A DNA stretch of 38,591 nt from Candidatus Omnitrophota bacterium. Lineage in GTDB: Bacteria; Omnitrophota; Gorgyraeia; JACQQV01. Below are positions 6,702 to 25,241 of this stretch, one piece after another. Every line of letters begins with the position of its first letter. Positions within the stretch are counted from its first letter, which is position 1. The stretch is from NCBI GenBank assembly GCA_016206785.1, contig JACQQV010000025.1:1-38591 (forward strand). The letters are read 5' to 3'. Position numbers and translations under genes: made by a program. Under the pieces are notes generated by a model. That model had not been told where the DNA came from, did not search any database, and worked only from the letters and a program-made list of their open reading frames with translations.

Positions 6702-6941
6702 TTACTTTACTGCTGAATATTGGGTAGCGTATCGGTCCACCAGTTCGCGTATCATCTTCTGATATTTTGTGTGACTCCGTTCCGCCGCCTTTTTGAAGAA
6801 ATCTACGCTTGATTTCTTTAGCGAAATTGTCACCTTGATTTTCTCTTCCGGAAGCACCAACTCACTGGGCGGAGGAAGAAAATCTTTAATTCTGCTTAGC
6901 TTCCCAATAGGCATATATCGATCAATCATCCTTTTTTTCAT
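6702..6941 (-). CDS. brnA: BrnA-type antitoxin
   Basis: A 79-residue antitoxin that would neutralise BrnT and bind its own promoter. The C-terminal half (KVTISLKKSSVDFFKKAAER and HTKYQKMIRELVDRYATQY) has the ribbon-helix-helix layout of the BrnA/DUF4415 family. I start at the ATG at 6941, preceded by GGGAGAGG, rather than at the longer open frame that lies inside brnT. It overlaps the end of brnT by 20 nt, the usual toxin-first order of this module. The tRNA-like repeat copy A follows directly. Confidence 0.82.
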   Translation of the reverse strand: MKKRMIDRYMPIGKLSRIKDFLPPPSELVLPEEKIKVTISLKKSSVDFFKKAAERSHTKYQKMIRELVDRYATQYSAVK

Positions 6942-7209
6942 AGTAGCCTCTCCCCTTTCTCCAATATCCCGCACCAAAAATTCTGATTTTGCCACCACGA
7001 TAGGTAAACCGAACTGTTATGATTTTATTCTCGACTTTTCCTATACAAAAGAATCTTTCCTCTTTCTTACTGTGCTTAGAGTCGGTGTAAATTTTTCTTC
7101 TAGGATCTTTGAATACTCTTGCGGCTGTGATAAAGTCAACACCATGTTTATAAATATTGAATAATTCTCTTTCAGGATCCCAGATGAAACTACTTGTCTC
7201 TTTGTCCAC
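6922..7209 (-). CDS. brnT: BrnT family toxin (ribonuclease-type)
   Basis: A 95-residue toxin of the BrnT family, which have a RelE-like fold and cut RNA. Family features seen: FIWDPERELFNIYKHGVDF, the hydrophobic AARVFKDPRRKIYTDS, and RIFGAGYWRKGRGYYE near the C-terminus. It begins with GTG at 7209. The -10 element lies 7 nt upstream, so the message should be leaderless and translation starts at its first base. The promoter carries an inverted repeat over the -35, the expected binding site for BrnA autoregulation. Confidence 0.85.
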   Translation of the reverse strand: MDKETSSFIWDPERELFNIYKHGVDFITAARVFKDPRRKIYTDSKHSKKEERFFCIGKVENKIITVRFTYRGGKIRIFGAGYWRKGRGYYEKKDD

Positions 7210-7985: not shown

Positions 7986-8078
7986 TTGGACTCGGCAGCC
8001 AGGCTACCTTAGCGTGTCGCTGGAGGCCCTTTAGCTTTGCGCCCTATTCTTTCGAATAGTTTGCCGTTTCGGTCTTCT
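7986..8078 (-). promoter_or_regulatory. c-di-GMP-I (GEMM) riboswitch upstream of the response regulator
   Basis: Minus strand shows the class signatures: CGGCAAACTATTC, GAAA tetraloop of P2, GAATAGGGCGCAAAGCTA, then GGTAGCCTGGCTGCCGA. The residue equivalent to G20 of the Vibrio Vc2 aptamer (first G of GGCAAA) is G, the c-di-GMP preference, and not A as in the cGAMP-selective variants. A weak -35/-10 pair lies at 8085-8113. Confidence 0.9.
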
Positions 8079-8153: not shown

Positions 8154-8218
8154 GGCTCCCCTTCGTAGACGTATTTAGAACGTTTCTGGCTTCTGGGGAA
8201 GCTGAGAGTATTATAGCA
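8154..8218 (-). repeat. Structured tRNA-like repeat, copy C
   Basis: Minus strand TGCTATAAT, then GCTTCCCCAGAAGCCAG, AAACGTTCT, and GGGGAGCCAATTTTTT. Its promoter-like core supplies the stop codon of the nucleotidyltransferase gene. The GC-rich hairpin followed by six T residues would also work as a terminator for that gene. Confidence 0.7.
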
Positions 8219-8906
8219 GAACCTTCAGGATTTCCTTTTCTTCCGCCTCCTGTAGCCCTTTCACAATCTTGGTCTGCCATTTGACAGATACTGATTTAAA
8301 AGCTTTTTGAATCAGATTTACCTCACCCCGCTTGATCAGGGCTTCCAAAATGTCGATGGCAATGCTCCTGTCTTTGATGGCCTTGTCCTTTTTGGTTCTC
8401 CTCTGAAAAATGATTAACTTGTGCAAGGCGAAATGGACGGGATGGGGCAAGGTCAAAGAAAAATCCTCCACTTTTACCTTGATGGTATTGTCGGATAGGA
8501 ATTCGAGGAATCTTAGTGCGACAGCGTTGAGCCCCAATTGCGGCAGTGAGTAGGGCTTCTCAATGCCCCTTCCCCTCTCAGGAACCAGGAATTCAAGGGT
8601 AAGATCGGGGTGGTCGAGTTTGATATAGCCCTGAGTTCCGTGGAATGTCGTAATAAAACCGAGGTCCTTCAGCAGGTCAGGAATGTCGACTTTCTGTTTG
8701 ATATGAGATGGGGTGTTCACGAGAAAGTCGATGTCTCTTGTTTTCAAGGTGGTTTGGTCCAGATAGGGCGCCGAACCGAAATAATCTTCGTAGAAAACTG
8801 CGCACCAGCTGCCAATCAAAATAAAATGATTTAGGATACCGGTTTTGTGGAACCTTCTTAAAATTTCAAGACAAAGCTCATATTGCTTCTTTTCCACGTA
8901 AAGCAC
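8211..8906 (-). CDS. Nucleotidyltransferase-fold protein (GSU2403-like)
   Basis: A 231-residue protein of the Pol beta-like nucleotidyltransferase superfamily. The helical start is followed by FILIGSWCAVFY, the place of the usual GS motif, and TRDIDFLV with the two metal-binding acidic residues about 27 residues later; a third acidic residue may be in TLEFLVPE. The pattern resembles the GSU2403 family. Members of this superfamily often serve as toxins or antitoxins that modify tRNA or proteins. Its start lies inside the end of the upstream small gene (29-nt overlap), so the two form one unit behind an elaborate operator. Copy C of the repeat begins in its stop codon. Confidence 0.8.
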   Translation of the reverse strand: MLYVEKKQYELCLEILRRFHKTGILNHFILIGSWCAVFYEDYFGSAPYLDQTTLKTRDIDFLVNTPSHIKQKVDIPDLLKDLGFITTFHGTQGYIKLDHPDLTLEFLVPERGRGIEKPYSLPQLGLNAVALRFLEFLSDNTIKVKVEDFSLTLPHPVHFALHKLIIFQRRTKKDKAIKDRSIAIDILEALIKRGEVNLIQKAFKSVSVKWQTKIVKGLQEAEEKEILKVLL

Positions 8907-9198
8907 CTTTCAGGAATTTGATCTGCTTTTTCACCTGGGAGAGCAATTTTCTGTATTTCGCTCTCAGTTTAACGGCCTCCAGATACTTTTGCTTCTCCTC
9001 TTCGGAAATCCTGCCTTTGTAAATATAGTTCACTTTTTGGTCCACCCTTTTCACCAGATAATAATACGGGTGGCCCCTTATTTTTCTAACAGCAAGGCAC
9101 CCTTGGGGCAGACGCCTCAGTGCCTGCTTGTATCCTTTTTTCATACGAAGGGAGTTTTGCAACTCTTCTGCTAAAACTCCCTTAATAACACCTCTCAT
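8878..9198 (-). CDS. Small basic protein, DUF6788-like, partner of the nucleotidyltransferase
   Basis: A 106-residue basic protein with the pattern LPQGCLAVRKIRGHPYYYLV, then VDQKVNYIYKGRIS, followed by a Lys/Arg-rich helix; this pattern is found in DUF6788-type proteins that accompany mobile or toxin-antitoxin-like genes. It could bind DNA or RNA. It starts with a well placed AGGAGG. The TTGACT/TATAAT promoter upstream sits among four copies of a 10-bp motif, so the operon is probably autoregulated. Whether this protein is the repressor is not known. Confidence 0.65.
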   Translation of the reverse strand: MRGVIKGVLAEELQNSLRMKKGYKQALRRLPQGCLAVRKIRGHPYYYLVKRVDQKVNYIYKGRISEEEKQKYLEAVKLRAKYRKLLSQVKKQIKFLKGALRGKEAI

Positions 9199-9208
9199 GG
9201 TTCCTCCT

Positions 9209-9308
9209 GTTACCTAACATACTATATAAAATTATACTTTGTTGGGTAACAAAAGTCAAGAAATAAATTACCCAACAAACCATTGAATTCTATAGCTTGT
9301 TGGGTAAC
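9209..9308 (-). promoter_or_regulatory. Promoter with four operator-like GTTACCCAAC sites
   Basis: Minus strand TTGACT (9254-9259), 17-nt spacer, TATAAT (9231-9236). Around it stand four copies of a 10-bp motif at 9209, 9241, 9267 and 9299. Orientation alternates, giving two inverted pairs, each with exactly 22 bp between arms (32 bp start to start, three helical turns). One pair straddles the -10; the -35 lies between the pairs. Confidence 0.7.
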
Positions 9309-9319
9309 GTCTTCTCCTA

Positions 9320-9356
9320 TAAAAGCAAAGGCGGACCTCTTTATGGCCCGCCTTTG
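9320..9356 (-). terminator. Intrinsic terminator of tRNA-Asn
   Basis: CAAAGGCGG pairs with CCGCCTTTG followed by CTTTTAT on the minus strand, 18 nt downstream of the tRNA CCA. A near-identical copy lies at 7307-7337. Confidence 0.8.
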
Positions 9357-9374: not shown

Positions 9375-9450
9375 TGGCTCCCCCGCGAGGACTCGAACCT
9401 CGGACCTAGTGGTTAACAGCCACCCGCTCTACCAACTGAGCTACAGGGGA
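9375..9450 (-). tRNA. tRNA-Asn(GTT)
   Basis: Complete cloverleaf: acceptor TCCCCTG with CGGGGGA, D arm TAGCTCAGTTGGTAGAGC, anticodon loop CTGTTAA (anticodon GTT), T arm GAGGTTCGAGTCCTC, discriminator G and encoded CCA. Its first bases also supply the stop codon of the GIY-YIG gene, and a 33-nt duplicate of its 5' half lies upstream of that gene. Confidence 0.97.
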
Positions 9451-9686
9451 AAAGATTCCTTTAAAAATTCTCGCCCTATACCAGACTTAAGATACTTTTC
9501 CCTTTCTCTGGCTAAGGCCCTACTAGGAAATTCTTCTTTATGAATGAGGCGAAAAGGTCTTCTTCCTTTAGTGTACTTTGAATCGCCAGAATTATGCTCT
9601 CCAAGTCTTTCTTCTGGATTCTTGGACATGCCAATGTAAAAACTATTGTCCTTCTGACTTCTCAGAATATATGTGTAATATCTCAT
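9441..9686 (-). CDS. GIY-YIG nuclease nested between a tRNA-Asn half and the intact tRNA-Asn
   Basis: An 81-residue single-domain GIY-YIG nuclease. The GIY half appears as YYTYILRS, the YIG half as FYIGMS, the conserved arginine in NPEERLGEHN and the metal-binding glutamate in REREKYLKSGIGRE. The ATG at 9686 follows the tRNA 5'-half copy by 3 nt, and the TAG stop is the TAG at positions 8-10 of the intact tRNA-Asn. A longer open frame upstream reads through the tRNA copy and is not real. Stand-alone GIY-YIG proteins of this size resemble the UPF0213/YhbQ group; the exact fit inside a tRNA gene suggests a homing endonuclease-like mobile role, which is inference. Confidence 0.9.
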   Translation of the reverse strand: MRYYTYILRSQKDNSFYIGMSKNPEERLGEHNSGDSKYTKGRRPFRLIHKEEFPSRALAREREKYLKSGIGREFLKESFPL

Positions 9687-9689
9687 CTT

Positions 9690-9742
9690 AGCCACCCGCT
9701 CCCTGCCTGCCGGCAGGCAGGTACCAACTGAGCTACAGGGGA
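9690..9742 (-). mobile_element. tRNA-Asn 5'-half copy split by a 20-bp palindrome
   Basis: The 33 bases before the anticodon of tRNA-Asn are repeated here exactly, except that a perfect palindrome, CCTGCCTGCCGGCAGGCAGG (9702-9721), interrupts the D loop after TTGGTA. The copy ends precisely between tRNA positions 33 and 34, and the GIY-YIG gene starts 3 nt later. This is the left boundary of the 272-bp cassette (9418-9689). Confidence 0.88.
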
Positions 9743-15696: not shown

Positions 15697-15805
15697 TACC
15701 TTCGGTGGCCTGGCGGCCCGGAAGACCATTCCCTTACGGGTCCATAGCTTTGCGCCTCACGATTGCTCGTGATTTGCCCTTCTCGAGTAATGCCTTGTTA
15801 AGGCG
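15697..15805 (-). promoter_or_regulatory. Orphan c-di-GMP-I (GEMM) riboswitch with no gene behind it
   Basis: Minus strand: GGGCAAATCACGA, GCAA tetraloop, TCGTGAGGCGCAAAGCTATGG, then GGGCCGCCAGGCCACCGAAGG. The P2 loop is a GNRA (GCAA) like the GAAA of the other two copies, and the G20-equivalent is G. It has its own promoter and terminator. After the terminator there are only about 95 bp, then the separately promoted tRNA-Arg. Confidence 0.85.
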
Positions 15806-22710: not shown

Positions 22711-22872
22711 CGTCGGCAGCCAGGCTACCTTGACACGGATGACGGCAGATTTGATACGGATTTTCGCGGATTTACTTTATCCGCGTTCATCCGCCTTTAA
22801 TCCGCGACTCTCCGCGTTATAGGCCCTTTGGCTTTGCGCTCTATCCTTTCGAATAGTTTGCCTTTATCGGTA
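22711..22872 (-). promoter_or_regulatory. c-di-GMP-I (GEMM) riboswitch controlling the sigma-54 activator
   Basis: Minus strand: AAAGGCAAACTATTC, GAAA tetraloop, GGATAGAGCGCAAAGCCAAA then GGGCC, a 90-nt insertion, and AAGGTAGCCTGGCTGCCGA. The conserved cores match the copy at 7986-8078. G20-equivalent is G. Confidence 0.9.
22732..22821. repeat. Repeat-rich insertion in the riboswitch P3 loop
   Basis: The 90 bp carry many GCGGAT/ATCCGC units in both orientations, including the hairpin CGCGGAT, 7 nt, ATCCGCG. The corresponding loop of the response regulator riboswitch is only about 15 nt. The two conserved halves of the aptamer on either side are intact. Confidence 0.75.
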
Positions 22873-24960: not shown

Positions 24961-25050
24961 TGGCGGAGAGACTGGGATTCGAACCCAGGAGGGCCTTGCG
25001 ACCCCACCGGTTTTCGAGACCGGCCCTTTCAACCGCTCAGGCATCTCTCC
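24961..25050 (-). tRNA. tRNA-Ser(CGA)
   Basis: Class II tRNA: acceptor GGAGAGA/TCTCTCC, anticodon loop CTCGAAA (CGA), variable arm GTGGGGTCGCAAGGCCCTC region, GGTTCGAATCC, discriminator G, CCA encoded. Last in a row of three tRNA-Ser genes. Confidence 0.96.
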
Positions 25051-25059
25051 GATGAAAGT

Positions 25060-25147
25060 TGGCGGAGAAGAGAGGATTCGAACCTCTGGTCCCTTGCGGG
25101 ACAACGGTTTTCAAGACCGCCGCATTCAACCGCTCTGCCACTTCTCC
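25060..25147 (-). tRNA. tRNA-Ser(TGA)
   Basis: Class II tRNA: acceptor GGAGAAG/CTTCTCC, anticodon loop CTTGAAA (TGA), long variable arm, discriminator G, CCA encoded. Confidence 0.96.
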
Positions 25148-25151
25148 AAAA

Positions 25152-25241
25152 TGGCGGAGAGGGTGGGATTTGAACCCACGAACCCTTGCGGGTTACGCGC
25201 TCTCCAAGCGCGCGCGCTCAGCCGGGCTACGCGACCTCTCC
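25152..25241 (-). tRNA. tRNA-Ser(GGA)
   Basis: Class II tRNA: acceptor GGAGAGG/CCTCTCC, anticodon loop TTGGAGA (GGA), long variable arm, T loop TTCAAAT, discriminator G, CCA encoded. It starts 10 nt after the M50-like gene, which follows serS. Confidence 0.96.

Follow-up and report, generated by a model that had tools for sequence, protein, structure and literature searches.

A probable gene-replacing homing element formed by a small GIY-YIG nuclease gene and a bacterial tRNA-Asn gene

In the yeasts Torulaspora and Lachancea, the 3' end of FBA1 is replaced by WHO elements, which leave behind clusters of old gene ends and nucleases; the nucleases are intein and zinc-finger fusions related to HO, and their cleavage has been demonstrated experimentally (PMC7282813). 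In fungal mitochondria, mORFs with substitute gene ends are found in atp6, atp9, cox2 and nad3 of Glomus and in atp6 of Allomyces, the atp9 case being a GIY-YIG one (PMC3630166). T4-like phages carry SegB, a GIY-YIG homing endonuclease that is co-localised with tRNA genes, cuts inside them and causes tandem amplification (PMC13096335). Here we describe a locus in a stretch of 38,591 nucleotides from a Candidatus Omnitrophota bacterium (the window), in which a small GIY-YIG nuclease gene lies between a broken and an intact copy of tRNA-Asn. Judging from the sequence of this locus and its relatives, we think it probable that the window element belongs to a widespread family of minimal homing elements that target and replace tRNA genes. 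A first-pass annotation of the same DNA had known of no described element with such a plan, a view that we revise, as the WHO elements and the mitochondrial mORFs are close precedents in other settings.

The tRNA-Asn locus of the window

Read on the minus strand, the locus opens with bases 1-21 of tRNA-Asn (9722..9742), followed by a perfect 20-bp palindrome, CCTGCCTGCCGGCAGGCAGG (9702..9721), bases 22-33 of the tRNA (9690..9701), an AAG spacer (9689-9687) directly before the ATG at 9686, the nuclease gene of 81 codons (9441..9686) and an intact tRNA-Asn(GTT) with its anticodon at position 34 (9375..9450; ARAGORN and Rfam). The TAG stop codon of the nuclease (9443-9441) is formed by bases 8-10 of the intact tRNA. 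The reading frame, its GIY-YIG identity, the 3-nt gap, the stop supplied by the tRNA and an inserted unit of 272 bp (9689-9418) had all been described correctly in the first-pass annotation. It had also drawn the upstream tRNA-Asn as running to base 33. The upstream copy does match the intact gene at 33/33 positions (21/21 and 12/12 in the two parts), but it is not continuous, the palindrome having been overlooked. This sits exactly between A21 and G22 and splits the copy, which spans 53 bp with the palindrome included and therefore cannot form a tRNA. The palindrome had 0 matches in 100 shuffles, and RNA folding of the broken copy was no better than that of its shuffles.

The intact tRNA-Asn is the only tRNA-Asn gene found among the 41 tRNA genes of the source genome (G000; 1.6 Mb, ~95% complete). 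Because the nuclease is immediately followed, and in the window overlapped, by the sole intact copy of an essential tRNA, the element would be hard to delete. Just past the tRNA, on the same strand, a consensus scan placed a terminator-like hairpin (9326..9356; chance alone would give about one such site in the region), which suggests that the fragment, the nuclease and tRNA-Asn may form one transcription unit. The same scan, itself weak evidence, returned no sigma-70-like promoter within the nuclease ORF. In the window the 5' half of the tRNA is duplicated, with both copies identical over 33 bases, and the replacement is not demonstrably a foreign tRNA. Since the rescue copy has the same base as the broken copy at each of the 33 positions they share, divergence does not explain how it would resist the nuclease, unlike in the WHO elements.

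We rejected a group I intron at this locus, since Rfam, which detects such an intron at another locus (L003), returned no match to one in the window. An integrase island was also rejected: there is no integrase and no room between the tRNA copies, and the duplicated end of the tRNA is the 5' end, not the 3' end. The earlier description of a minimal nuclease element lacking both an intron ribozyme and an integrase thus holds.

The 81-codon ORF matches PF01541 with an E-value of 1.8e-18 and 67 bits (Pfam cut-off 22.6), and is a URI/UPF0213-like protein consisting of the catalytic domain only, unlike SegB. In an alignment of 27 relatives Tyr17, Gly19, Arg27, His31 and Glu63 are invariant, and the catalytic tyrosine, glycine, arginine and glutamate are thus kept. 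Within the clade of nucleases found at tRNA-Pro, dN is 0.07-0.11 against a dS of 0.59-0.92, so the nuclease is under purifying selection. The nearest solved structures are the UPF0213 proteins 1ywl and 1zg2, followed by SLX1, a structure-specific nuclease; all belong to the same GIY-YIG protein family as the window nuclease. We know of no link between these structures and tRNA replacement.

Several other features of the window were seen on the minus strand. Just past the tRNA-Asn unit lie a nucleotidyltransferase gene (NTP_transf_8; 8211-9198) and, before it, a small gene (9199-9320), with GTTACCCAACAA inverted repeats upstream; the two genes look like a toxin-antitoxin-type pair. A BrnT toxin gene (PF04365) followed by a likely antitoxin gene occupies 6702-7209. 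Rfam matched three c-di-GMP-I riboswitches (7990-8074, 15701-15788 and 22712-22872), among them a match to the GGC subtype and another that extends over 161 nt against a model of 87 positions. Three tRNA-Ser genes with the different anticodons CGA, TGA and GGA stand in a row at 24961-25241.

Recurrence and movement among tRNA genes

We ranked 384 genomes of the source organism's class by likeness to the window protein and fetched the loci, to which named Bacteroidota were added. GIY-YIG domains were present in 39/39 relatives searched, which is expected because uvrC contains one. Among the first 130 loci, 87 of the 138 small GIY-YIG genes had a tRNA no more than 300 bp away, nearly always with both on one strand. 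In 67 pairs the tRNA stood just downstream, and in 51 of these a second copy of its 5' part preceded the start of the nuclease. The combination of a GIY-YIG gene and a duplicated 5' tRNA part, which the first-pass annotation had proposed looking for, therefore exists at other tRNA genes, and the same plan was seen for Asn, Arg, Pro, His, Ser, Leu, Tyr, Glu, Met and Ala. As a control, none of 20 uvrC genes of the same genomes had a tRNA in the ~3 kb on either side, and we estimate that a same-strand tRNA just downstream of a random gene occurs at well below 1% (41 tRNAs in 1.6 Mb). The nuclease gene commonly ends inside the tRNA, overlapping it by 10 bp, ~23-25 bp or ~37-40 bp through in-frame stops of the tRNA. 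At some loci the nuclease lies downstream of an intact tRNA, and 70 of the 180 small GIY-YIG genes finally sampled had no tRNA nearby, so the link between nuclease and tRNA is strong but not universal. A chance repeat was ruled out, because the same arrangement is seen in dozens of other genomes. Together the locus and its recurrence support the earlier proposal of site-specificity within a tRNA gene, with a replacement tRNA.

How far the 5' fragment extends differs between loci, from ~27 bases to the full length. A decayed but nearly complete tRNA, still recognised by Rfam, has been kept at L032 in the cultured type strain Halpernia humi DSM 21580. Insertion exactly between positions 33 and 34, which had been the proposed cut, was dropped as a general rule; the recurrent precise joint is instead the hairpin at A21^G22, with others at 28/29 and in the anticodon loop.

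Most of the host genomes are metagenome bins, and two contigs that share 1.87 kb at 99.6% identity (L073 and L078) were assigned to bins of different families, a likeness that would reflect either misbinning or very recent transfer. These are the points in favour of an assembly or binning artefact. Such an origin of the arrangement is hardly credible, given its presence in many independent assemblies, in a single-contig genome (G054, locus L086) and in the type strain above.

Some loci differ from this plan or carry further insertions. In the family of Halpernia humi the order is mirrored (L206, L210, L213-L230), with an intact tRNA-Met first and the GIY-YIG gene ~37 bp downstream; tandem arrays are frequent there and the nucleases form one clade. 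For two Halpernia-clade nucleases of tRNA-Arg (L202, L203) a CCTGCC palindrome sits in the anticodon arm of the 3' part of tRNA-Arg, and at L202 an intact tRNA-Arg lies upstream of the nuclease. Rfam also placed group I introns in or adjoining tRNA genes beside GIY-YIG genes at L003 (1114-1339) and L049 (2167-2360); at these two loci the introns and the nuclease elements, both invaders of tRNA genes, occur together.

On a nuclease tree of 56 rows the tRNA isotype changes 17 times (shuffled mean 35, minimum 29), whereas host family changes 39 times (shuffled mean 41.6, minimum 38). By this tree the nucleases are related by target and not by host, although support for its deep forks is weak because the proteins are short.

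The clearest comparison of empty and occupied sites came from the orthologous tRNA-Pro(TGG) locus of one genus (g72), which was recognised by a conserved upstream gene. Several species of this genus carry a plain native tRNA-Pro at the site (L233-L241). At L049 the native gene is split, its left piece matching the native gene of a congener at 28/28 positions and its right piece at 28/29, and between the pieces lie a hairpin, a nuclease gene, an intact tRNA-Pro and two units without a nuclease. The intact middle tRNA-Pro matches the congener's native gene at 62/74 positions and that of another genus at 71/74, and shares the acceptor stem of the other genus, unlike that of the congener. Here a single tRNA gene of an essential type has been replaced by a foreign one that arrived with the nuclease. 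Two further species are occupied at the same site (L047, L065), and in another the nuclease is present without an upstream tRNA fragment (L087). Sites with and without the cassette, which the first-pass annotation had suggested as a check for tRNA-Asn, thus exist at tRNA-Pro. It had proposed that the element brings its own 5' half; at this clear empty-site locus a whole foreign tRNA had come in. The first-pass idea was broadly correct, but where the cut falls, what is carried and how singular the element is have to be amended.

Clusters of successive fragments and nucleases were found at seven loci (L016, L042, L044, L095, L098, L166 and L204). L042 and L092 have in common tRNA-Asn and the 1.2 kb downstream, at 91% identity, with different GIY-YIG genes upstream, a difference that may be due either to turnover at one site or to misbinning. 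At L054 and L069 homology is limited to the element; we did not take this as decisive proof of its borders, because tRNAs are conserved anyway.

It could be argued that nothing here is mobile, and that an ordinary GIY-YIG gene was caught up in a tandem duplication of the tRNA and kept through the shared tRNA promoter while the upstream copy decayed and gathered repeats neutrally. Duplication of the promoter together with the tRNA is indeed visible at L032, L042 and L045, the upstream copy is broken as a redundant copy would be, and hairpins are moderately frequent in the flanks too. We nevertheless regard this explanation as decidedly unlikely. The same arrangement occurs at ten or more isotypes, nuclease kinship tracks isotype across many host families, the element is present or absent within a genus with a foreign tRNA as the replacement, and the fragment exceeds the flanks ~5-7 times in hairpin density. 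A housekeeping role, in which the nuclease is conserved because it serves tRNA-linked processing or repair, would agree with the tight same-strand coupling and with purifying selection. It is very improbable, however, as the gene is patchy even within one genus and the isotypes differ between genomes, and as broken tRNA copies are left over and several tandem copies can stand at one locus.

Hairpins in the broken tRNA copies

A GC-rich hairpin breaks the tRNA sequence in 44 of 47 upstream fragments. Hairpin density in the fragments is 9.1 per kb, compared with 1.4-1.9 for the flanks and 0.6 after shuffling of the fragments. The CCTGCC..GGCAGG type lies exactly at A21^G22, in the D-arm, in ~23 tRNA copies (a hand count from listings), which span several isotypes and two bacterial groups, Bacteroidota included. 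The CCGCC..GGCGG types mostly lie from base 13 to the anticodon loop. Hairpin type tracks nuclease clade, with 5 changes on the tree against a shuffled mean of 15.7. At L042 a tandem array is built of units of upstream flank and tRNA bases 1-21; each unit stops at A21, which makes A21^G22 a recurrent breakpoint.

Copies of the palindrome are scattered outside tRNA genes as well, 3 in the source genome and 13 in another (G033), and we therefore dropped the idea that it is a part unique to the element. In the latter genome (L144, L154, L156, L158, L159) the same 20-bp palindrome lies within a longer repeat with inverted ends (GAAGCCT.. and AATATTCTACGAAGCAT..), which resembles a small mobile repeat. 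A literature search by the palindrome sequence gave no match.

These observations raise the possibility that the palindrome itself is the mobile unit. It would insert at the D-loops and anticodon loops of tRNAs, a GIY-YIG protein related to SLX1 would act on the hairpins or cruciforms, and breaks at hairpins would amplify tRNA copies, of which only arrays with an intact tRNA survive. The presence of a hairpin in nearly every broken copy, its exact placement at A21^G22, its dispersed copies, its agreement with nuclease clade and the array ending at A21 all speak for such a scheme, as do hairpin-bearing versions that have no nuclease (L139, L140) and the rank of SLX1 as next structural relative after UPF0213. 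Against it, hairpin sequences vary widely among elements, and the dispersed copies have no common insertion motif and frequently no nuclease gene nearby. Taken alone it also leaves the isotype-specific nuclease clades and the foreign tRNA at L049 unaccounted for, and we consider it unlikely. Within a homing element with gene replacement, the hairpin may be an immunity mark, an insertion boundary, an interruption of the direct repeat, which if unbroken would lead to loss of the element, or a mobilised unit; all four are candidates.

Proposed mechanism and relation to known systems

In the mechanism we propose, the mobile unit would combine a small GIY-YIG gene with a functional copy of the target tRNA gene, either its 5' part or the whole. 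The nuclease would break tRNA genes of a single isotype where these are unoccupied, and repair would draw on the copy bearing the element. The product would begin with the old 5' end of the recipient's tRNA, continue with a hairpin and the nuclease gene, and close with an intact tRNA that is partly or wholly from the donor, with the old tRNA end remaining as a broken fragment. Comparison of the loci supports products of homing with replacement; the cut and the repair are steps that we infer.

A stronger form of this proposal would see in these elements a natural cleave-and-rescue gene drive of bacterial chromosomes. Isotype-specialised nucleases of ~80 amino acids would break essential tRNA genes and install an overlapping rescue tRNA that blocks loss, the hairpin at A21^G22 would be a working part (insertion boundary, immunity mark or mobilised unit), and foreign tRNAs would replace essential ones across phyla. 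We put this forward tentatively, as a possibility that is rather doubtful in its full extent.

If the proposed mechanism is right, this would be a homing element cut down to the bare catalytic domain, one that attacks genes more conserved than any others in the cell and persists through the replacement copy it carries. It would account for the many bacteria in which a short GIY-YIG gene adjoins a tRNA gene and give a route for the horizontal replacement of essential tRNA genes, with a likeness to synthetic cleave-and-rescue drives. It would also raise the question of how a nuclease of 80 residues without a separate DNA-binding domain selects one isotype and spares the rescue copy.

Among described systems, the WHO elements share with the window element a free nuclease gene combined with a piece of an essential target, the replacement of one gene end and the decay of old ends and nucleases (PMC7282813). 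They differ in that their target is a protein gene of yeast, FBA1, whereas the present kind has a GIY-YIG protein of ~80 amino acids, bacterial tRNA genes as targets, hairpins and a presumed cleavage. We rejected membership of the WHO family proper, as the HO-like intein and the zinc finger are absent and the window protein is an 81-residue GIY-YIG domain only. The mORFs likewise consist of an endonuclease ORF in a gene with a substitute end, the native end being a non-functional piece (PMC3630166); they replace the C-terminal part of mitochondrial protein genes, while the present elements would replace mostly the 5' part or the whole of bacterial tRNA genes. Of the features of gene-replacing elements, a broken target with displaced native pieces is seen in the window and, with both 5' and 3' pieces, at L049; a replacement of different origin is found at L049; and clusters of successive nucleases and fragments occur at six loci (L016, L044, L095, L098, L166 and L204).

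SegB has in common with the window element the GIY-YIG nuclease family and a tRNA target. It is phage-borne, however, and no isotype preference, broken target copy or replacement copy has been reported for it (PMC13096335). An endonuclease of the Seg type was rejected for the window, since a scan of viral contigs found no relative that would point to a viral vehicle and a phage tblastn only relatives below 50% identity, so that the gene is not phage-carried by either search. Group I introns in bacterial tRNA genes are likewise mobile insertions into tRNA genes, but the window has no ribozyme and its interrupted copy is superseded, not spliced (PMC3984707). REP/RAYT palindrome systems rely on a Y1 tyrosine transposase, whereas the gene at the window locus encodes a GIY-YIG protein.

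A search of the open-access literature, with subscription papers and preprints outside its scope, found no description of such a tRNA-replacing element. The window element works like the WHO elements and the mORFs, resembles SegB in nuclease family and target, and by the features tested is a member of none of them. As far as could be searched it is undescribed, and we regard it as a new, bacterial form of the gene-replacing homing elements that is aimed at tRNA genes, minimal in its make-up and marked by a hairpin.
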